A DNA stretch of 64,000 nt from contig NZ_JACHCR010000006.1 in assembly GCF_014205845.1 (NCBI RefSeq), positions 124,001 to 188,000 on the forward strand. Reading direction: 5' to 3'. The translations under genes and the position numbers were made by a program. Positions 53,820 through 63,981 of the stretch are shown here, piece after piece (within the stretch, counting starts at the first letter, position 1; each line of letters begins with the position of its first letter). The DNA is from Mucilaginibacter cryoferens. GTDB lineage: Bacteria > Bacteroidota > Bacteroidia > Sphingobacteriales > Sphingobacteriaceae. Below the pieces are notes generated by a model. That model was not told where the DNA came from and searched no databases. It saw only the letters and a program-made list of their open reading frames with translations.

Positions 53820-54722
53820 TTAGTGTACAGCGAAGGCTTTTACAAAAGTTCCGCTGGCATTAAATACAATTACGTATTTGGTACTGTTTGAGGTGATCTC
53901 TACATCGTACCCGGTTATAACACTGTTAACACTGTGCGAGAATGCTTTATCAAAAACATAACCCGGATAGCTGGTTGTTAAATAAGTGGTAATGGCTGCA
54001 GGCAGGTTGGCTGCCGTTACCGCGGTATGTTTACCCACGTGCCTATCAATCTCCGTGCGTTTTATGAGTGTACCAGAAGCTTTAATGGCGGTTGCAAATA
54101 AGCCATTGTTTTTACTGATCAGCACATAAGCGCTATCGGGGGTTATAGAAGCATGCAATAATGTATCTGTTGGATAGGTAGTTTTAAAGTAGCTGCTTAC
54201 TGCTGTTGGCAGGGCCGATATAGCAATGGTATCGCGGTGTTGTCCATCACGATTATCAAACGGACCACCGTGGTGCCATCCCGGGCCCACCAGGTCGCGA
54301 CCTTCTTTTTGTTCTAACGTACTTACAAATACGCCTGCCGCCGTAAATTTTAAGCCAATTAATGCGTTATTGTATTTAATTACAACAATGTAGTTGATTA
54401 CCGTTTTGGCGCTGTCAATAATTGAATAGGCCTTTTTTAAAGTATAACCGCTGTAGTTTGCCGTTAAATAGGTACCAACGGCTGTTGGTAAAGCGCTAAA
54501 AGCAACGCTATCTGTTTTGTCGTGATGGCCAAAGCAACCTACCATGTATACCGTATCTGTAGTGCCCGATGCTAAGCTGATTGCAATTGCGCCGGTTGAT
54601 GTAATGGTAGACGACGATGTGGTGGTAGAGGCTGATTTGGATGCACTTTCTTTTTTACATGATGTAAATCCAATCATGGCTGCCAGCACCAGCAGCCAGG
54701 GTTGAGTAAATTTCTTTTTCAT
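53820..54722 (-). CDS. Lipoprotein with three PepSY-like repeats
   Basis: A 300-residue lipoprotein (lipobox FTSC, Cys22) followed by a Ser/Thr-rich linker to about residue 45. Three repeats of roughly 70-80 residues begin with SVAFSALPTAVGTYLTANYSGYT, TIAISALPTAVSSYFKTTYP and AVTAANLPAAITTYLTTSYPGY. Each resembles the PepSY-like putative beta-lactamase-inhibitor-like domain of Bacteroidota (PF11396 type). A His-rich stretch (GWHHGG, near residue 150) separates the first two. PepSY domains often inhibit or anchor secreted proteins; here it is beside a pepsin-like lipoprotein on the same strand, 135 bases apart. Confidence 0.75.
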   Translation of the reverse strand: MKKKFTQPWLLVLAAMIGFTSCKKESASKSASTTTSSSTITSTGAIAISLASGTTDTVYMVGCFGHHDKTDSVAFSALPTAVGTYLTANYSGYTLKKAYSIIDSAKTVINYIVVIKYNNALIGLKFTAAGVFVSTLEQKEGRDLVGPGWHHGGPFDNRDGQHRDTIAISALPTAVSSYFKTTYPTDTLLHASITPDSAYVLISKNNGLFATAIKASGTLIKRTEIDRHVGKHTAVTAANLPAAITTYLTTSYPGYVFDKAFSHSVNSVITGYDVEITSNSTKYVIVFNASGTFVKAFAVH

Positions 54723-54857
54723 CTGAGTGATTTTAATTGATAATTATTGCCTGCCATTATGGTAAGGCTTTGTTATCTAAAATTAGGTCAGGTGGTGCGG
54801 GATATAAACGATGTGTCGATAAACGGCGGTTTTAAATCGACGGACGAAATCTTTCTT

Positions 54858-55946
54858 TTAGTTGTTTTTCAAGCCAATTTGGTGGTTACCGTAATCTGTT
54901 AAAAACTCATTGTAAATAAAAAAGTCTAAACTGAAAATTGTACGGTAATCCTGCGTATTGTTTGGGTTTTGTACTTCGGTAAGGTTGCCGGTATTTGTTG
55001 TAACATAGGTATAGGTAAAACCCTGGTTAGTTGTTAAAGTAACGGTAGTATTGGTTGGTAAGGCGCCAACTGATGCCAGCCTGTTCTCTATAGTAGTTAC
55101 CGATGGTGTGCCTGTATCAAAAAGTAACTCTGCCGAAATGGTTTGCCCGTTATAAGTTATAGTGCCAGGTATATTGGGCGAGTACCCGTAAATACCTTGT
55201 TGCGATAAAGTATGCATAATAAAGCCCGACGATTTAAGATCGGCACTTGTTAAACCAACAGTAAGCAGGCTGGCGGTATAGGTAGGACTAGTAAGAAAAT
55301 TTGCAATATTTAAGGTTGTAAGTTTAAACCCACTGGTTAGCCCTGTACCGTATGTGTAAAATCTTAAGGGACTTGAGATAGTTGTGATGGTACTGCTTAA
55401 GCCTGGTCCCACGCCAAAAACATCGGCCGAATGGGCGGCTAACTGGTTTTTCTTACTATCAACTATTTTATAGTATAAAAAAAAAGGAACACGTTTTAGA
55501 TCCATGCTGCCCAACGAGTTGCCTACCGTAACGTTGGCGTAGGCAAGGTTGCCATATTCTATTGTGGTGCCGGTTGCATCCCCATAGCTTATGGTAGATG
55601 TTTTTGAGGTTATAGTAATGCCATTCACCACGGTAGAGTCGCCGGTAACCTGTATGCCTGCAGATGTGATCATAGATGCCGGTATAATGCCGGTAGCATC
55701 CATTGTCATCCCGGGTGAGCCTGTATCAAAAATACTACCATAATTTACAGTTTGCGTACCTATTTTGGTGATGGCTATAAGTACTCTTTTATCTACACCG
55801 CTTGCATATTCATACAAGCCCAGGGATACAGGCGTTGCATTTACAACAGGCGTTACAGTTTTATCTTTTTTGCAGGATGTAAAAGGTATAATAAGCAACA
55901 GACAGCCAATAAGCCGCGGTTGAAAAAGTAAATGTTTAACTTTCAT
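54858..55946 (-). CDS. Pepsin-like (two DTG motifs) aspartic peptidase lipoprotein
   Basis: A 362-residue lipoprotein (lipobox FTSC, Cys25). Two aspartic-protease active-site motifs are visible: SIFDTGSPG (Asp74) and LLFDTGTPS (Asp277), about 200 residues apart, as in the two lobes of family A1 pepsins. Between them, STISYGDATGTTIEYGNLAYANVTVG (Tyr121) matches the pepsin flap region in order and spacing, and DVFGVGPGLS (175-184) resembles the GILGLG-type segment. I infer an A1-like peptidase or a relative attached to a membrane. Bacterial pepsins are uncommon. The alternative is a retropepsin-fold duplication with another role. Confidence 0.7.
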   Translation of the reverse strand: MKVKHLLFQPRLIGCLLLIIPFTSCKKDKTVTPVVNATPVSLGLYEYASGVDKRVLIAITKIGTQTVNYGSIFDTGSPGMTMDATGIIPASMITSAGIQVTGDSTVVNGITITSKTSTISYGDATGTTIEYGNLAYANVTVGNSLGSMDLKRVPFFLYYKIVDSKKNQLAAHSADVFGVGPGLSSTITTISSPLRFYTYGTGLTSGFKLTTLNIANFLTSPTYTASLLTVGLTSADLKSSGFIMHTLSQQGIYGYSPNIPGTITYNGQTISAELLFDTGTPSVTTIENRLASVGALPTNTTVTLTTNQGFTYTYVTTNTGNLTEVQNPNNTQDYRTIFSLDFFIYNEFLTDYGNHQIGLKNN

Positions 55947-56086: not shown

Positions 56087-56707
56087 TTAATTACACCTGT
56101 TTAAACCGTCGAGGCTTGAAGCATCGGAAGGTTTAATAATGAGGGCTCTTTCAAATAATGGTTTGGCATCTGCTTTTCTGCCTGCCATCAGATCGCTCCA
56201 GGCCAGCATGTGGTTACCATCATAATCAAAAGGATAAAGTGCTATTACTACCTTAAAACAGCGTATGGCCGCATCATATTGTTTACGGTTGTAATAAATT
56301 ACCCCGGCCCAGTAGTTAGCCTGTGTGTTTTGCGGATCGATCTTTAAAATAGCCAGGTATTGTTCAATTACTTTATCCCAGCTTTGTAAAAACGATAAAG
56401 GTTTTATATAACCAAATTTAGCTTCTATTGAACCCGGTTTAAGGCCAATGGCCTTCTGATAATACGATTGGGACGAGGTGTAATTTTTACTGAGATAATG
56501 TAGCCAGCCCAAACGGATATTAAGCTCGTAATTGTTATCGGAGTAGTAGGGCGCAATATCGCTGATGGCAGCAACATAATTTTTGTTCTGTTCGTTGGCG
56601 TAACTGTTACGAAAAGCTTTTTGCAGCACCGAGTTGGTTTGCGCCTGTAGCTTAAATACAAGTAAAATTAAAAATGCTGCTATAAACGTTCTCTTTAAAA
56701 TTTCCAT
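56087..56707 (-). CDS. Secreted TPR-repeat protein (operon gene 6)
   Basis: A 206-residue protein with a signal peptide (to LQAQ) and several tetratricopeptide repeats (NYELNIRLGWLHYLSKNYTSSQSYYQKAIGLKP, QANYWAGVIYYNRKQYDAAIRCFKVVIALYP, LMAGRKADAKPLFERALIIKP). It is a likely periplasmic scaffold. Its start overlaps the end of the TPR/barrel gene by 13 bases, placing it as the last gene of the six-gene unit. Confidence 0.82.
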   Translation of the reverse strand: MEILKRTFIAAFLILLVFKLQAQTNSVLQKAFRNSYANEQNKNYVAAISDIAPYYSDNNYELNIRLGWLHYLSKNYTSSQSYYQKAIGLKPGSIEAKFGYIKPLSFLQSWDKVIEQYLAILKIDPQNTQANYWAGVIYYNRKQYDAAIRCFKVVIALYPFDYDGNHMLAWSDLMAGRKADAKPLFERALIIKPSDASSLDGLNRCN

Positions 56708-57873
56708 ATTATCCCTAACGTAACAGAATTTTGATTATAATTTGAATTATGGTAAATGTCCGTTTTCTTTTCATAAGAATAGTTTACATTCAACAAGGCC
56801 TGGGGGCTTAGCTGGAAAAAAGCGGTTTCGCCACATTTAAATTTGGTTGGATCGATAGAGTTGTAAACGTAAAGCCCATCGGTATCCAAATAATCGTCAA
56901 GATTACCAAAAGTTGCCGAAGTTTCAAGCCAGGTTTTGTTTAATACTTTAAAACCGATGGTTTGGTTGTAAATAAAAGTATTTACACCGCTTAAATTTAA
57001 AACCGATGCCCGGCTTGTGGTATATAAATTAAGGTTACCCAATGGATAGAAATCTAATTTGGCGTTATATTGTTTTAAAGTTTTATCAATCATACGCCCA
57101 AAATCCATGTCGCCTTGTAAATCAACATAGCGGGTAGTATACTTTATTCCCAATAACCCCAGGTTACTAATGCTAATATTACTGCGGTAACTGGTATGCA
57201 GGTAGTGATAAGAACCAATGAGACTGACATCCTTATTTAGCGCGAATTTAATTTTGGCAAAATACTCAGACTGTCTATCGGTATGCCCAATTTGGTTTTT
57301 ATGATCTATATAGCCCCCTCTCAATATATTTTGCTTAAAAAATATAACAGATTGCTCCAATTGCAAACGCCATGACAGGCGATTGCTCAAGCCAAAACGT
57401 TCAAAAAAACCATTGTCGCGTTGGTCGTTATTGGGCAATTTTATCCCGGTTTCCAAGCCGGCATCTATAAAACCAAAGGGCGAAAGTTTTACTGATTTCA
57501 GCGTTTCTTTATCCAGGTAACCGGCGTGGTACGATGCAGCCAGATTGTTATTGAGATAGTTGTTGCAGTAATAAGCATATAGCCGTGCCGTGGAGTTAGT
57601 GGGCTCCTGGTCTAAAACCTGGCTAAACTGGTCATTGGCGGCTTTGTAATTGCCGGTTACCATATAGGCATAGCCAATTTTAAAGCGTAAAAAAGATGGG
57701 GCTATGCTATCGGCTATACATTTATTCCCAAAAATGATCAACTGCTTCCAGTCGCCGGCATTGTACAGTTGCTCGGCGGTGCTATCGGCCAGGGCAACTT
57801 TGCTTTCCTGCGCCCGGGCAGTAAGAGCAAGAAATATTAAAGCGAAAATTGCAATTAGTTTTCTGTACTCCAT
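56695..57873 (-). CDS. TPR and outer-membrane beta-barrel protein (operon gene 5)
   Basis: A 392-residue protein with a signal peptide (to ARAQ). Residues about 25-130 hold TPR-like helices (FLRFKIGYAYMVTGNYKAANDQFSQVLDQEP). From about 130 to the end, alternating beta-strands (FGFIDAGLETGIKL, SNRLSWRLQLEQSVIFF, YFAKIKFALNKDVSLIGSYHY) end in GIIWKF, with the C-terminal Phe of an outer-membrane barrel. The layout resembles YaiO-type proteins. It overlaps the preceding gene by 19 bases and the following one by 13. An export or anchoring role for the operon product is a guess. Confidence 0.75.
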   Translation of the reverse strand: MEYRKLIAIFALIFLALTARAQESKVALADSTAEQLYNAGDWKQLIIFGNKCIADSIAPSFLRFKIGYAYMVTGNYKAANDQFSQVLDQEPTNSTARLYAYYCNNYLNNNLAASYHAGYLDKETLKSVKLSPFGFIDAGLETGIKLPNNDQRDNGFFERFGLSNRLSWRLQLEQSVIFFKQNILRGGYIDHKNQIGHTDRQSEYFAKIKFALNKDVSLIGSYHYLHTSYRSNISISNLGLLGIKYTTRYVDLQGDMDFGRMIDKTLKQYNAKLDFYPLGNLNLYTTSRASVLNLSGVNTFIYNQTIGFKVLNKTWLETSATFGNLDDYLDTDGLYVYNSIDPTKFKCGETAFFQLSPQALLNVNYSYEKKTDIYHNSNYNQNSVTLGIIWKF

Positions 57874-60005
57874 TGTGCTTTAATGTGGCTGCCGTTAATA
57901 TTTATGCTGATGGTTTGTAAACTACCATGATCAATACAAATTGTAGAATCCATCAACTGCTTATTGTTTCTTTTATCGAATTGTTTTGAATTGATACTTA
58001 ATCCGTTTTTTTGAACCAAGTTACTACTTTGGTATCCAATGCTAATAAACTTGTAAAATGGTGCCACCAAATCCTGTAACAAAAGCAACACTTTGTTTTG
58101 GGATAAATGTACCGCAAATTCGTCGTTCACCTCAAGTTCTTCGGCATCGTTAAAAATAACTTTATAAGCCGCCAGGTAAAAATAGTAAAGCATTGATTTT
58201 TTGTCGCCATAAAAACTGGTAAAATAAAACATAACACCATTATTGATATAGTAAGCGGCGGCTCCCGTGGTTTTACTGTAAATACCACATTGACCTAAAG
58301 TATCTTTAAAAACTTCCCATTCTTCAGTGTTCCCGTTTTCTTGCGTTAAGCGGGCCGTATAACCCGGTTGCAGGTCGAACGCTTTTTTTATACCTGCGTT
58401 AACTTCCGGATTGCCTACCAGTTCACCTTCTGCAGGGATGGTGTAGCTTTGCAGGCTGTTTTTATTTCCCTTACGGCTAAAATACCAGGCAAACGGATAC
58501 CTCAACGTTTTAGATCCAATATAAGGCGTTGCCTGTAGCTGAAAATGCAAATGCGGCTCTGGCGAACGGCCGGAATTGCCGCACAATGCTAACAGGTCGC
58601 CCTGCTTTACAATATCTCCGGGTTTTACTTTAGCAGAGTTTTTTTTGAGGTGCGATACTTTGGAGTACAAACCAATGGCATGTTTGATCACCACGGTGTT
58701 GCCCCAGTTTTCTTTAAGGTTTTCTTTGCCAATGGGGTTATCTTCTAAATGGTTAACCACCAATTCTACAACACCATCGCCGCAGGCTAAAACAGGTTTA
58801 TTAAAACAGTAAAAATTTTCGGGTTGGGTGCCGGGATATTGATAGGTTTTTTGTTCATCATCATAGATCATAAAATCCAGCGCCTCACTCCAATCGCCTT
58901 TGTGTGTGATACTGCCATTATAGCCCTGGGTAACTGTCCAATAGCCCATAAAAGGGAGGTTGAGTTTTAGGTATTTGAGATCGTTGAGCCTGTTTTGCTG
59001 GTTCAAAAACTGGTAAAGGTTTCTTTCGGGCGAGTAATGTTGTACCTGGGTTAGCTGTAATTTGCCGGTAGACTTGCGTAACGTTAAAAAATATAACAGG
59101 CTTATATTCACCATACAAAACGGTAACGAAAAAATGGGCAATGCATGTACCGACATAAAACCTGTAAGCGCATTGATGAAAATAAACACCACCGGAATAC
59201 ACAATACTGCCAGTAAATAGGAGCGAAGTGAGGGGATGGTGAAAAAACTGCCCATAGCTACAGAAACCATCATAACATTTGCCCCTAAATGATAGTAGCT
59301 GATGCCTTCGGGATAAACATAAATTACCGAATTAAGTAAACAGGCCCCTATAAAACTAATAACAAGCAGGCTAAATGCTATGCGCGAATGGATAAATAAT
59401 CCCAGGCTCATGAGCATACCCACAATAATATTATGCTGAAACAAAACCGCGCTAAGCGCCCTGAAAAACAGGCTTACATATTTGGGGAGCGCTACCGCGA
59501 AATAGCCTTCTACCCCGGCCAGGTGCCCGGGACCATTATAAATTTCTTCTAACAGGTAGCTGCTTTTCTGTTGCAGGCCCATTGCAAAAATGCTGTTTGC
59601 AGCCAAAAGTACCATCCAAAATACAAGAATAAAAGGGAGGGACAACATGGGTAGTCCCCGCTTTCCCAGGCGTTGGGAAAGCAGGATGGATGCCACTATT
59701 ACCATACCACAAGTTACCACCAGCCATAGTACAAATAGGAGGTTTACGTGATAGAATGCCCCAAAAGCTATCCCCAATAATAAGCTGTTAAAGCTGTAAA
59801 TGCCTGTTTGCAGGTCGTCGCCATAAAATTTCAGCAGGCGGCAAATTACCTGCGAAAATAAAACGCAACCCAGGCCTGCAAAGCCTGATGCAGGGTTAAA
59901 AAAGGAAACCAGCATTAAAATAAGGCCCAATACCCGGTTCTGCGAAAAAAACAGAACGGAATAGGAATTAATGACCGATTTTATAAATGCTGAAATTTGC
60001 TTCAC
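57855..60005 (-). CDS. Urea transporter fused to M23 peptidase (operon gene 4)
   Basis: A 716-residue fusion. Residues 1-310 are a urea-transporter (UT) domain with about ten membrane segments; the NPASGFAGLGCVLF (about 37-50), IYSFNSLLLGIAFG (69-82) and FFRALSAVLFQHNIIVGMLMSLGLF (180-204) segments match UT repeats. Residues about 355-500 are a zinc metallopeptidase of family M23 (LytM): ITHKGDWSEALDF gives His368 and Asp377, and GRSPEPHLHFQL gives His485 and His487. A beta-rich tail follows. The start is GTG, directly after the TAG of the decarboxylase gene. M23 enzymes cut peptidoglycan cross-bridges; a link to urea is not known to me. Confidence 0.83.
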   Translation of the reverse strand: MKQISAFIKSVINSYSVLFFSQNRVLGLILMLVSFFNPASGFAGLGCVLFSQVICRLLKFYGDDLQTGIYSFNSLLLGIAFGAFYHVNLLFVLWLVVTCGMVIVASILLSQRLGKRGLPMLSLPFILVFWMVLLAANSIFAMGLQQKSSYLLEEIYNGPGHLAGVEGYFAVALPKYVSLFFRALSAVLFQHNIIVGMLMSLGLFIHSRIAFSLLVISFIGACLLNSVIYVYPEGISYYHLGANVMMVSVAMGSFFTIPSLRSYLLAVLCIPVVFIFINALTGFMSVHALPIFSLPFCMVNISLLYFLTLRKSTGKLQLTQVQHYSPERNLYQFLNQQNRLNDLKYLKLNLPFMGYWTVTQGYNGSITHKGDWSEALDFMIYDDEQKTYQYPGTQPENFYCFNKPVLACGDGVVELVVNHLEDNPIGKENLKENWGNTVVIKHAIGLYSKVSHLKKNSAKVKPGDIVKQGDLLALCGNSGRSPEPHLHFQLQATPYIGSKTLRYPFAWYFSRKGNKNSLQSYTIPAEGELVGNPEVNAGIKKAFDLQPGYTARLTQENGNTEEWEVFKDTLGQCGIYSKTTGAAAYYINNGVMFYFTSFYGDKKSMLYYFYLAAYKVIFNDAEELEVNDEFAVHLSQNKVLLLLQDLVAPFYKFISIGYQSSNLVQKNGLSINSKQFDKRNNKQLMDSTICIDHGSLQTISININGSHIKAQWSTEN

Positions 60006-61358
60006 CTATTTTGCTTTTAAATGAGTGGGAACAAACTCTGGCTCCTCGGTATATTGAAGTGTTTCGCTGGTACGGATTACGTGGGTACGCTGCTGCTCAT
60101 CAATTAGTACCACTGTAGGCCGCAGCGTTATAAACTGCATCCACTGCGTCATATTATAAGCGCCAACTTTATGCACCACTACCTGGTCGCCCGGACTAAG
60201 CGGCGGCAGGTTAATGCTTTCTCTTATCACATCTATATTCATACACAGCGGGCCGTATATCACCATATTTTCGCTATGGGGTACAAAATCCTGCGCGGGG
60301 CTTATCTGGTGCTCGTACCAAAAGGAGGTAAATAAAATGTTCACCCCAAAATCTACAATAGTAGCCCGTTTACCGCTGCTCAGGCGTTTGTTTGCAATTA
60401 CGGTACCTAACAGGTATCCGGCATCATCTATCAGTACGCGTCCGCTTTCCAGTATCAGTGAAGGGAGATCTGTGTTGGCAAAGCCATAGTTGAGCAGGGT
60501 AGAGGTAATTACCTCTGCAAAATCATCTATAGATGGCACGGTATCATTCCCCGGCAAATAAGCACCCTTTAGGGTATTGGTTGATGGAAAACCACCGCCC
60601 ATATCAATGTACTCTATTTTATGGTTACATTGAGTTTGGCAGCGTATGGCCAGATCGCATAATTTGGTAGCGGCAATGCCATAGGCGGCTGTAGTGAGCA
60701 TATAAGTGCCTATATGGCAATGCAACCCAGCTAATTGCAGCTTGCCAGAGTTTACTACCTTGGTTAAAGCAGTCCAGGCTTCGCCGTTCTCGTAATTAAA
60801 GCCAAAGCGGTCCCAAAGCGGATAAACACCGGTATCCATATTTACACGGATAGCTACGCGGGGTTTGTTAGCCAAATTATTGCTTAAGGTAAGCAGCTGG
60901 TTTAATTCTTCAAAATGATCTATATGAATGAGCGAATCGTTTTCGATAGCCATTTGCAACTCATCATTTGTTTTGCCCGGGCCGTTAAAAATGATCTTAT
61001 TGCCTGGTACACCGTTGCCTAAAGCCTTACGGTATTCGAAACCGGATACTACCTCGGCCCAACTGCCCTCCTGGTGAAATACCTGGCAAATGGCGTTCAA
61101 ATAATTGGTTTTATAACTCCATGCAAACTGTACTTTAGGGTAGCGGGTACTAAATGCCCGGTATGCAGAGCGGTAGTTTTTACGGATCTGCCTTTCTGAT
61201 AATACAAATACCGGCGAACCATAAGTTTCTATCAGACTTTTAACAGATATGCCATCAATGTTTTTAACAGGCTGTACACCGGTGCGGGTGCCAAACTTGT
61301 TCATCACCCCGGCGTGGAGTTTTTTTATATATGGTTTTTCGTATTGCAGCTTTTCCAT
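60006..61358 (-). CDS. Fold-type III PLP-dependent decarboxylase, LysA-like (operon gene 3)
   Basis: A 450-residue cytoplasmic enzyme of the diaminopimelate/ornithine decarboxylase family. The N-terminal alanine-racemase-type barrel shows FAWSYKTN with the PLP lysine Lys83, HCHIGTY (His213, His215), the phosphate-binding GGGFP (254-258) and ILESGRVL (Glu304). The C-terminal domain has GPLCMNIDVI with Cys372 and Asp376 and VGAYNMTQ (Tyr401). The residue set indicates decarboxylation, but CMNID replaces the CES(G/S)D usual in DAP decarboxylase, so the substrate is probably different. The next gene starts at the very next base; the ATP-grasp gene ends 11 bases upstream. Confidence 0.85.
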   Translation of the reverse strand: MEKLQYEKPYIKKLHAGVMNKFGTRTGVQPVKNIDGISVKSLIETYGSPVFVLSERQIRKNYRSAYRAFSTRYPKVQFAWSYKTNYLNAICQVFHQEGSWAEVVSGFEYRKALGNGVPGNKIIFNGPGKTNDELQMAIENDSLIHIDHFEELNQLLTLSNNLANKPRVAIRVNMDTGVYPLWDRFGFNYENGEAWTALTKVVNSGKLQLAGLHCHIGTYMLTTAAYGIAATKLCDLAIRCQTQCNHKIEYIDMGGGFPSTNTLKGAYLPGNDTVPSIDDFAEVITSTLLNYGFANTDLPSLILESGRVLIDDAGYLLGTVIANKRLSSGKRATIVDFGVNILFTSFWYEHQISPAQDFVPHSENMVIYGPLCMNIDVIRESINLPPLSPGDQVVVHKVGAYNMTQWMQFITLRPTVVLIDEQQRTHVIRTSETLQYTEEPEFVPTHLKAK

Positions 61359-61369
61359 TGTTATTCGGG

Positions 61370-62422
61370 TTATAATTCGCCAAATACCGAGATCTGCTGA
61401 AAATCGCTGATATCGGCAATATGGTCCCAGGAGTAACGCACAAATAATTTACCGGCCTGGTAATCATCATATGGTTCAACAGGGTTGCCTAAGGCCATTT
61501 TTACCAGTGCCTCAGGCTGGTTTTGCCCGGCGGCAACTGTTAAATATACCCATGCCGGAAACCTTGGGTTTACCTCCAAAATATATAAATGTCCTTCGGC
61601 ATCGTTCATAATCTCCATCTCGTAACCGCCTTTCCAGTTGGTTGCTTTTGCAAAATTATTGGCCAGTGTTATTAACTTATCATCTTTTATAGTTACGCCT
61701 GCCCAGGCTTTGCCCTTATCGGTTATATAAAGCTTACGCATGGCCACAATGCTTGTATTACCGCCCGTGCCATTGCCAAGGGCCGCTATATTTATTTCGG
61801 TACCTTTTATGTATTGCTGGGCAATTACCGGTACCCCCCAGGCGGCGTTTAACTGGTGGAAGGCTTTAATTGCCTGATCTATACTATAAACAACATAGGC
61901 CTCATAAAACTTACCTTTTATTACCATAGGGAAGTTAAATTCATCGGCGGCTTTTTTTAAATCATCGGCGTGGTACAATTTATGATCGGCAGGTACATAA
62001 AGACCATGCTGATCGCCAAAATCCTTCAAATTTACCTTATCCCGCAAGGCCAGTTGTTGGTGCGATGGTAAATAGCTGGCAATTCCCATTTGCTTTAACT
62101 GCGACGCTATTTTTATGAAATTAAACAGCTCCGAATCAAAATTAGGAATTATAAGATCCAGGTTTTCCTGTTGATGGATGTAGGCTAAGCGTTCAAGCAA
62201 TGCCGCCGTTCCTTCGGTTGGATAGGGGATCAGGTATGTTTTATTTACGTGGTGGCGCAGGTAAATGCCAGGTTCTAATGACTCGTATGATAAACCTATA
62301 ATTCTTAGCCCATCCCCAAAACTCTCTTTTAAAGAACGGATAACCGCCATGCCCGGTCCGGGGTTATCATTGGCATTAAGCCCGGTAACGGCAATACATA
62401 AATTTGCGTACTGGTTTGCCAT
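61370..62422 (-). CDS. ATP-grasp ligase (operon gene 2)
   Basis: A 350-residue cytoplasmic protein. The N-terminal Rossmann-like part (LCIAVTGLNANDNPGPGMAVIRSL) and central ATP-grasp domain (NFPMVIKGKFYEAYVV, VPVIAQQYIKGTEINIAALG) resemble carboxylate-amine ligases of the CarB/PylC-like group. The catalytic loop GGYEMEIMNDAEGHLYILEVNPRFP supplies the Mg-binding Glu and Asn residues. It should join a carboxylate to an amine or similar nucleophile with ATP use. It overlaps the PqqD-like gene by one base (TAATG), suggesting tight coupling. The substrates are unknown. Confidence 0.83.
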   Translation of the reverse strand: MANQYANLCIAVTGLNANDNPGPGMAVIRSLKESFGDGLRIIGLSYESLEPGIYLRHHVNKTYLIPYPTEGTAALLERLAYIHQQENLDLIIPNFDSELFNFIKIASQLKQMGIASYLPSHQQLALRDKVNLKDFGDQHGLYVPADHKLYHADDLKKAADEFNFPMVIKGKFYEAYVVYSIDQAIKAFHQLNAAWGVPVIAQQYIKGTEINIAALGNGTGGNTSIVAMRKLYITDKGKAWAGVTIKDDKLITLANNFAKATNWKGGYEMEIMNDAEGHLYILEVNPRFPAWVYLTVAAGQNQPEALVKMALGNPVEPYDDYQAGKLFVRYSWDHIADISDFQQISVFGEL

Positions 62423-62670
62423 TATCCTTCAGTTTCGAGCAAATTTGCCTCTTTAAGTTGTATCATCCAATCTTCCCAATCGCGCTCCAATTGGTTGGTG
62501 TTTACATCGTATAGTGCTAAAATATTCTTTTTTATCTCGGCTTCGGTTTTGCCGCTTTTCATAGCCAGTAACAATGTTGCGGCCATGGCATTCCCAGAGA
62601 AGGAATCGCCCGTAGCCGGGTTAAATATAAACCCATTCTCGCTGGTGGCTATGTTACTCTTTATCTTCAT
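62422..62670 (-). CDS. PqqD-like small protein (operon gene 1)
   Basis: An 82-residue protein resembling PqqD/RRE domains: an N-terminal beta-strand region (IATSENGFIFNPATGDSFSGN) and winged-helix-like helices (AAATLLLAMKSGKTEAEIKKNILALYDV, LERDWEDWMIQLKEANLLE). Such domains bind leader peptides of ribosomally made peptides. I saw no obvious precursor peptide in the 90 bases upstream or elsewhere in the operon, so the partner peptide, if any, is missing or outside. It is the first gene of the six-gene unit and overlaps the ATP-grasp gene by one base. Confidence 0.75.
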   Translation of the reverse strand: MKIKSNIATSENGFIFNPATGDSFSGNAMAATLLLAMKSGKTEAEIKKNILALYDVNTNQLERDWEDWMIQLKEANLLETEG

Positions 62671-62760: not shown

Positions 62761-63138
62761 TTATGATGCCATTAAATACTCCATCCGCGATGCCAGCAAT
62801 TCCATATCCAGTGGTTTTACAAAAAGGGCATCGCATTTGTAAGATTCTTCCTGCGCTTTTTTACTTTTAAAAGCTGTAACCACAATAATGGGGACTCCTT
62901 TTAATTGCTCATCATCCTTAAAATCCTGGCATACCAACGCGCAATCAACATCAAGCAATAAATAATCTAAAATGATAAGATCGGGATTGATGATTTTTGC
63001 CTTATCGTATATAGCATTAGGGTCATAGGTGAGATGGACGTCAAAATTGCCATAGTACATAATATCATCAATTACAGATAACATTCTGCTGTTTTTATCC
63101 AATATCAGGATCTTTTTTTTGCTGCCGATCGGTTTCAT
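62761..63138 (-). CDS. Stand-alone response regulator receiver protein
   Basis: A 125-residue single receiver domain without an output domain. The acidic pocket Asp14 in LILDKN, phospho-acceptor Asp58 in LIILDYLLL, Thr88 in IVVTAF and Lys108 in FVKPLD are all present, so phosphorylation is expected. It resembles CheY-like proteins that act through protein contacts. It lies 90 bases upstream of the PqqD-like gene on the same strand and may regulate or belong to that unit; the link is positional only. Confidence 0.88.
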   Translation of the reverse strand: MKPIGSKKKILILDKNSRMLSVIDDIMYYGNFDVHLTYDPNAIYDKAKIINPDLIILDYLLLDVDCALVCQDFKDDEQLKGVPIIVVTAFKSKKAQEESYKCDALFVKPLDMELLASRMEYLMAS

Positions 63139-63282
63139 ATTGCTCTATTTAAGTCATGAAATCAAAACAGCTTTTTATTTACGATGCCTTGATTATGATA
63201 TAAAGTTGATATTAAACCTGTCAGCAAAAAAGTATGTGTCGTTGAATGCCTTTAATGTGCCGATGAACTAATATACGGCTGG

Positions 63283-63981
63283 TTATTTCGACCAGTCTTT
63301 TATAAAATCGGCATAGTTGGTACCTACCGGCAATTCGATGTTGCGTAGCTTAACCTTACGGTTGTAGATAGACCTGATCTGCGCTTTGGCCACTACAAAA
63401 CTGCGGTGGATGCGGATAAACTGTGTAGCCGGCAGTTTTTCTACTACGCTTTTTAAAGACATCAGTGTAAGTATCGGTTTTTCGGCACTCAATAAATGGA
63501 TCTTGATATAATCCTGCATGCTCTCAATATATTCAATATCGCGGATGCTTATCTTGATGACCCGATACTCCGAGTGTACATAAATATGTTCGTCTTCGCC
63601 GGTATGGTCGGTATTTTTAAACTGGTAATAATCTATAAGCTTATGTACAGCTATGCCAAAACGATTGCTGTTAATGGGTTTTAACAGGTAATCCAAAGCC
63701 TCCAGTTCAAAACCTTCATAAGCAAATTTTTTGTAGGCCGTGGTAAATATAACCATCGGTTTTTCCTGTAGTGAACGTACCAGATCTACACCCGTAATAT
63801 CGGGCATATTAATATCTACAAAAAGCACATCTACTTTATTGTTTTTCAAATATTCGGCACCAGAAATAGCGTCCTCAAAGGTGTTTACCATTTTTAAGGT
63901 TGGATAATCGGATACATATTTTTTGATGATCTCCAGCGCCAGCGGCTCGTCATCAATGGCTACACATTTTAACTGCGTCAT
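63283..63981 (-). CDS. LytTR-type response regulator
   Basis: A 232-residue response regulator. The receiver domain has Asp10-Asp11 in VAIDDEP, phospho-acceptor Asp56 in VLFVDINMPDITG, the Thr segment IFTTAYKKFA and Lys in LLKPIN. The C-terminal LytTR DNA-binding domain covers about residues 130-230 (IYVHSEYRVIKISIRDIEYIESMQDYIKIHLL, FIRIHRSFVVAKAQI). In Bacteroidota these pair with a membrane histidine kinase of the LytS/YehU type, which could lie to the right of the window. It is 144 bases from the stand-alone receiver. Confidence 0.93.
   Translation of the reverse strand: MTQLKCVAIDDEPLALEIIKKYVSDYPTLKMVNTFEDAISGAEYLKNNKVDVLFVDINMPDITGVDLVRSLQEKPMVIFTTAYKKFAYEGFELEALDYLLKPINSNRFGIAVHKLIDYYQFKNTDHTGEDEHIYVHSEYRVIKISIRDIEYIESMQDYIKIHLLSAEKPILTLMSLKSVVEKLPATQFIRIHRSFVVAKAQIRSIYNRKVKLRNIELPVGTNYADFIKDWSK

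Follow-up and report, generated by a model that had tools for sequence, protein, structure and literature searches.

An operon of Mucilaginibacter and other Bacteroidota encodes a PqqD-family protein resembling lasso-peptide recognition elements and a PLP decarboxylase with a leader-like N-terminal tail

The DNA analysed in this work is a window of 64,000 nucleotides from the 6.95 Mb genome of Mucilaginibacter cryoferens (contig NZ_JACHCR010000006.1, positions 124,001 to 188,000), and the system in question is a set of six minus-strand genes, A to F, at window positions 56087-62670. Gene A encodes a small protein of the PqqD family, a type of RiPP recognition element (RRE; RiPP, ribosomally synthesized and post-translationally modified peptide). 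The RREs are known for bringing ribosomal peptides to the enzymes that modify them; here, the one leader-like sequence that was found lies on a pyridoxal 5'-phosphate (PLP) enzyme, the product of gene C. The open reading frame (ORF) coordinates agree with the gene junctions described in an earlier, sequence-only reading of this DNA: A and B share one base (TAATG), B and C are separated by a gap of 11 bases, C and D are adjacent (60006/60005), and the D/E and E/F overlaps are 19 and 13 bases. The features of the operon are as follows, with their basis in brackets where one applies.

62422-62670, minus strand: gene A, PqqD-family RRE, similar to lasso B1 proteins, 82 aa (Pfam, PDB profile matches)
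61370-62422, minus strand: gene B, ATP-grasp ligase, carbamoyl-phosphate-synthase/PylC-like, 350 aa (Pfam, curated models, NPR motif)
60006-61358, minus strand: gene C, fold-III PLP decarboxylase with leader-like N-terminal tail, 450 aa (Pfam, curated models, PDB profile)
61260-61358, minus strand: N-terminal tail of C, residues 1-33, before the LysA-homologous part (start of similarity, conservation)
61326-61343, minus strand: YEKPYI, a YxxPxI motif, residues 6-11 of C (conservation, n=49)
61296-61298, minus strand: invariant Lys21 in the NKFG segment of C (conservation, n=49)
57855-60005, minus strand: gene D, urea-transporter (UT)/M23 fusion, 716 aa, GTG start (Pfam, predicted model)
58992-60005, minus strand: UT domain of D, residues 1-338
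58446-58973, minus strand: M23/LytM domain of D, about residues 345-520
57864-58433, minus strand: C-terminal beta-rich domain of D, about residues 525-714 (strands in the model, predicted local distance difference test (pLDDT) mostly 80-90)
56695-57873, minus strand: gene E, exported protein with weak TPR similarity, probable outer-membrane barrel, 392 aa (Pfam matches below cut-off, signal peptide by eye)
56087-56707, minus strand: gene F, exported TPR protein, 206 aa (Pfam, signal peptide by eye)

The families assigned in the sequence-only reading (PqqD, ATP-grasp, PLP decarboxylase, UT, M23 and, for F, TPR) all exceed their Pfam cut-offs, which are given here in brackets after the scores in bits. 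A matched PqqD (PF05402) with 33.4 (23.4), B matched ATPgrasp_Ter with 40.4 (29.1) and ATP-grasp_3 with 26.7 (23.2), C matched Orn_Arg_deC_N with 107 (23.4) and Orn_DAP_Arg_deC with 50.1 (23), D matched UT with 149.9 (25) and Peptidase_M23 with 58.3 (28.7), and F matched TPR_2 with 63.8 (27). The label of E as a TPR-barrel protein is weak by sequence, as TPR_2 (18; 27) and BBP2_2 (15.1; 23.7) both stay below cut-off. E and F look exported, with signal peptides recognized by eye.

Genes A to F are a real, widespread operon that forms one system. Neighbourhoods were compared at 48 loci, found via B or D (9 via B, 6 in a scan of the family and 33 in a scan of the phylum), several of which are close relatives and not independent cases. 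The order A-B-C-D on one strand was kept in 48 of 48, F was present in 46 and E in 27, and the median spacings were -4 (A/B), 10 (B/C) and 4 (C/D) bases. In separate searches of the phylum sample, comprising 395 genomes from 170 genera, B and C were each found in 34 genomes and 27 genera. D matched in 40 genomes, and 6 with the M23 part only were dropped; B, C and full-length D occur in an identical set of 34 genomes, about one in twelve of those sampled. The idea of a single system maintained in many genera is thus upheld. Within the family, full-length D was present in 8 of 121 genomes, the other matches covering the M23 part or the UT part only, and the named close matches of B belong to Mucilaginibacter. 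No description of the six-gene set was found in the open-licence full-text literature, in agreement with the earlier statement that no described pathway with this set was known.

Variation was observed at a few loci. A gene of 661 aa separates A and B in L109, C and D are set apart by an extra reading frame in L105, and a gene of 280-317 aa lies between D and F in L105, L106 and L108. In L107, D is split over two frames and two large genes stand between D and E; this copy looks interrupted. Where E is missing, F is followed in 14 loci by a separate exported protein of 269-309 aa that looks like a barrel by eye, and in 3 loci another family lies between D and F; one of the proteins after F was checked against Pfam and gave no match. 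One contig (G240, C1) has two identical-scoring A-B-C copies near both ends, possibly an assembly overlap.

By sequence, A is closest to the lasso-type RREs. A profile built from eight A proteins matched TbiB1 (2.1e-8; 5v1u/5v1v) and TfuB1 (1.8e-6; 6jx3), both lasso-peptide RREs of the B1/E group and the only PDB matches below E 0.1 (the next was 0.16). The best NCBIfam match was the lasso RRE model NF033530 (E 2.6e-5), although its 24.3 bits are below the cut-off of 70. The earlier view that a PqqD-type recognition protein is central to the system therefore stands, now with lasso-type RREs as its nearest relatives. PF05402 was matched above cut-off in all 34 operon genomes; A is the sole match in 16 of them, and the other 18 have more elsewhere. 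The HPr-rel-A PqqD protein (TIGR04353) is likewise a discrete PqqD-type protein without a radical SAM enzyme; A reached 21 bits against its cut-off of 35, and the partner genes of that protein are other than those of A.

A leader-like sequence, which the sequence-only reading had not noted, is present in the same operon, at the N-terminus of C. The similarity of C to LysA and FslC starts at about residue 28-34, and the preceding sequence is MEKLQYEKPYIKKLHAGVMNKFGTRT. Its pattern in an alignment of 49 sequences (48 loci and the window) is [YF]E[RK]PxI...G..xKFG, in which Pro9 and Lys21 are invariant (49/49) and the spacing is constant, with the Lys always 15 residues after the Tyr. Position 6 is Tyr in 44 and Phe in 5, position 7 is Glu in 48, position 11 is Ile, Val or Leu in all 49, and Gly17 and Gly23 are kept in 46 and 48, respectively. 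YxxPx[IVLM] was also present in 120 of 120 homologues among the matches listed, for a query profile that itself included the tail. Lasso RREs recognize a YxxP motif, which binds in their cleft between alpha3 and beta3 (PMC12710340), and a conserved YxxPxL has been described at lasso leader positions -17 to -12 (PMC10368454). In contrast to the lasso systems, the motif is here carried by a 450-aa enzyme.

No separate precursor peptide with a tail-like leader was found when the tail profile was searched against the 34 operon genomes: all 35 places matched were in C (one genome has C twice), and the next best match had E 0.019. Nor was a precursor peptide with the YxxPxL leader of a lasso cluster seen, C alone having the motif in these genomes. 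In the window genome the tail search returned C only, besides one match at E 1.7, and the motif was not seen in the first 80 residues of two C paralogues (L112, L114), whose ORF starts are uncertain. No lasso cyclase or leader peptidase was seen in the 48 neighbourhoods, where neighbours were clustered, not all of them annotated, and no profile search was aimed at these enzymes.

A predicted structure bears on the relation between A and the tail. In locus L003, A and C lie in one frame, so that the DNA from A to C could be read as one joined chain for modelling, with stops read as Ser and approximately 350 out-of-frame residues as linker and decoy; AlphaFold2 was run on this chain with 126 aligned rows. 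A was modelled with high confidence, whereas linker residues 328-436 had a pLDDT below 50. The segment 441-450 (LEYEKPYIKK), which includes the tail motif (443-448), had a mean pLDDT of 93 and a predicted strand at 448-451, whereas 454-462, containing GVMNKFG, was again below 50. Since structural alignments to known decarboxylases begin at model residue 457 or later, the ordered segment lies outside the decarboxylase fold, and a segment that is ordered between disordered stretches would be expected to rest against a partner, which is likely to be A, although a single uncontrolled model provides support and not proof. The pairing of an RRE with an enzyme that carries a leader-like tail would be the most surprising part of the system, and it rests on the sequence together with this one model.

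Among PDB entries, the body of C is closest by sequence to FslC, its best profile match (4.6e-88, compared with 4.3e-67 for diaminopimelate decarboxylase, DAPDC). In common with the N-citrylornithine decarboxylase FslC/FigC (7kh2) and with SbnH, C has the fold, a Met by the catalytic Cys, and a Thr and a Tyr on the specificity helix. As in FigC, the catalytic Cys has a Met as its neighbour (Met373), the acidic residue of DAPDC being absent there, and Thr344 is found where DAPDC has Arg343, which binds the distal carboxylate. On the other hand, the citrate-contacting H357, R387 and N389 of FslC/FigC align with I375, Q405 and M407 in C, C has in addition the tail that resembles an RRE-binding sequence, and its ligase partner is an ATP-grasp enzyme instead of an NRPS-independent siderophore (NIS) synthetase. 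The FslC/FigC model NF041039 gave 218.3 bits against a cut-off of 500. C was also considered as LysA and rejected, with 221.3 bits for TIGR01048 (cut-off 297.9) and without the DAP-binding Arg and acidic residue; a separate true LysA is encoded elsewhere in the window genome (381.3 bits). For the comparison with exosortase-associated clusters made in the sequence-only reading, the exosortase-A decarboxylase model TIGR03099 gave 137.1 bits against a cut-off of 478.45. Because FslC is closest by sequence and the DAP-binding Arg and acidic residue are absent, the substrate of C is probably an amide conjugate, which B may supply.

The sequence of B places it with the carbamoyl-phosphate-synthase/PylC-like ligases and not with the microviridin type. 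The NPR motif residues E283, N285 and R287 are invariant in 33 rows. PylC-like_N gave 16.3 bits for the window protein, below the cut-off of 27; of 33 family members, 29 match it at E values up to 0.1, the best being 1.6e-5.

Structure comparison showed that D has a complete UT fold, and its charges are distributed as in canonical UTs; for these reasons the M23 domain is probably cytoplasmic. The UT/M23 fusion had been suggested to link the product to the envelope, which is not supported in that form, the M23 domain being probably on the inside, though exported stand-alone relatives of this domain exist, the nearest having signal-like N-termini. H368, D377, H452, H485 and H487, the catalytic residues of the M23 domain, are invariant in 55 rows. 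Among 47 D proteins, the urea-contacting residues of dvUT (3k3g) are represented by F27 in 47, L129 in 46 and Ser for T130 in 42; D differs from dvUT and UT-B in that E187 is missing in 47 of 47, Q24 is kept in 25, and M23 and C-terminal domains are fused to the channel. E187 varies in vertebrate UTs as well (PMC5311045). The window genome has a second UT-like gene without M23 (G000 C2:313700-314443, 303 aa, 27% identity).

We tentatively propose, at slightly under an even chance, that the operon encodes a conjugate-first decarboxylation system that is guided by an RRE and includes membrane and envelope proteins of its own. A would bind the YxxPxI motif in the tail of C in the way that a precursor leader is bound by lasso RREs, which has good support, with no separate precursor involved, and would thereby hold C beside B, whose gene overlaps that of A. 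As suggested by their residues, B would join an amino acid to an acceptor by an amide bond, and C would decarboxylate the conjugate and not the free amino acid, as happens to N-citrylornithine in the FigA/FigC pathway. The conserved, flexible xKFG segment may serve either to dock B or as the acceptor. D, a urea-channel fold with altered site residues and with its zinc-peptidase domain on the side of the N-terminus, would trim or release the product and pass it across the inner membrane, from where it would be carried outward by periplasmic F and by E, or by the separate barrel gene in other clades. A parallel for conjugate decarboxylation is known from butirosin biosynthesis (BtrJ/BtrI/BtrK), where an ATP-grasp ligase and a fold-III PLP decarboxylase act on an amino acid bound to a carrier, as glutamyl carrier protein. 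BtrK (2j66, 7ru7) is among the PDB matches of C, but the acyl carrier protein is absent here, and the tail of C may take its place. The ligase-plus-decarboxylase chemistry of the sequence-only reading fits the FigC-like residues of C. Its suggestion of a carrier bound by the PqqD-like protein is modified, the only leader-like sequence found being the tail of C and not a separate carrier. The sequence that resembles a leader is here part of a metabolic enzyme, and this enzyme and A are passed on as one block with the ligase, the channel-peptidase fusion and the envelope proteins. If the binding of A to the tail is true, it would mean a new use of an RRE and open a direct way into a widely shared pathway. 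A further caution is that genome mining based on RREs can pick out loci without a precursor peptide.

It is rather unlikely, if still a serious alternative, that A is only an adaptor that clamps C to B (or D) for channelling, with B and C acting on free small molecules, for instance to give a rhizoferrin- or butirosin-side-chain-like amide, and with KFG as a second contact in a tail that is never modified. FslC as the closest solved relative of C, the service of RREs as docking domains, and a short tail motif outside the fold are consistent with it; however, an invariant Lys21 in a stretch predicted to be disordered exceeds the needs of a simple linker, and the operon showed neither a transporter nor a receptor of the kind usual for siderophores. 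A more far-reaching version of the conjugate-first proposal, which we regard as doubtful, is that C loads itself: A would present the tail to B, B would attach the amino acid to Lys21 by an isopeptide bond, the arm would swing it into the PLP site for decarboxylation, and the M23 domain of D would free the product at the cytoplasmic mouth of the channel. If true, an enzyme would have taken up a RiPP leader-core pair as its carrier arm.

Peptidoglycan remodelling, with C as a variant DAP or lysine enzyme, B ligating wall amino acids and M23 cutting murein in the periplasm, appears improbable. The invariant M23 residues, the signal-like N-termini of the stand-alone relatives and the exported appearance of E and F would suit it; however, C is without the DAP-recognizing residues, the UT fold and charges put M23 inside, and close membrane-anchored M23 relatives occur in haloarchaea, which, like other archaea, are not known to have murein. 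Membrane-anchored M23 proteins (L145, L146, L147; haloarchaea, Thermus and Thermomicrobium) share 33-41% identity with the M23 domain of D, and the substrate of the haloarchaeal ones is puzzling on its own account. Least probable of all, and very unlikely, is an ordinary RiPP pathway with an unseen precursor as the target of A and B, the tail of C being a decoy or co-recruited leader copy: A resembles lasso RREs and ATP-grasp enzymes make graspetides (PMC8939145), but the 34 operon genomes hold no other tail-like sequence below E 0.019, no lasso cyclase was seen in the neighbourhoods (no profile search for one being made), and B is not microviridin-type.

Two genes upstream of A in the window may control the operon in Sphingobacteriaceae (62761-63981):

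63283-63981, minus strand: LytTR response regulator, possible regulator (Pfam, neighbourhood counts)
62761-63138, minus strand: single receiver-domain protein, possible regulator (Pfam, neighbourhood counts)

In 10 of 48 loci (L002-L009, L041, L042), A is closely preceded by a LytTR regulator and a LytS-like histidine kinase, with an extra receiver-domain protein before A in 8. Directly upstream of A, 10 other loci (L088-L091, L093, L095, L098-L101) have a secreted, FG-GAP-like protein bearing a type IX secretion tail, which could be a substrate or partner in its clade, and 4 (L010, L044, L045, L077) have a GNAT acetyltransferase; in L044 and L045 a leucine-carboxyl-methyltransferase-like protein also follows F. 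After the operon, two lipoprotein-like genes (53820-55946) recur in Mucilaginibacter loci (clusters n7 in 6 and n5 in 7), the second with a PepSY-like domain. In the rest of the window, the region 6616-51010 has genes for glycan use and encodes GH20 (GH, glycoside hydrolase family), a GH109-type oxidoreductase, GH3, an alpha-L-fucosidase and two TonB receptors, together with an arylsulfotransferase-like and a glutaminase A-like protein.

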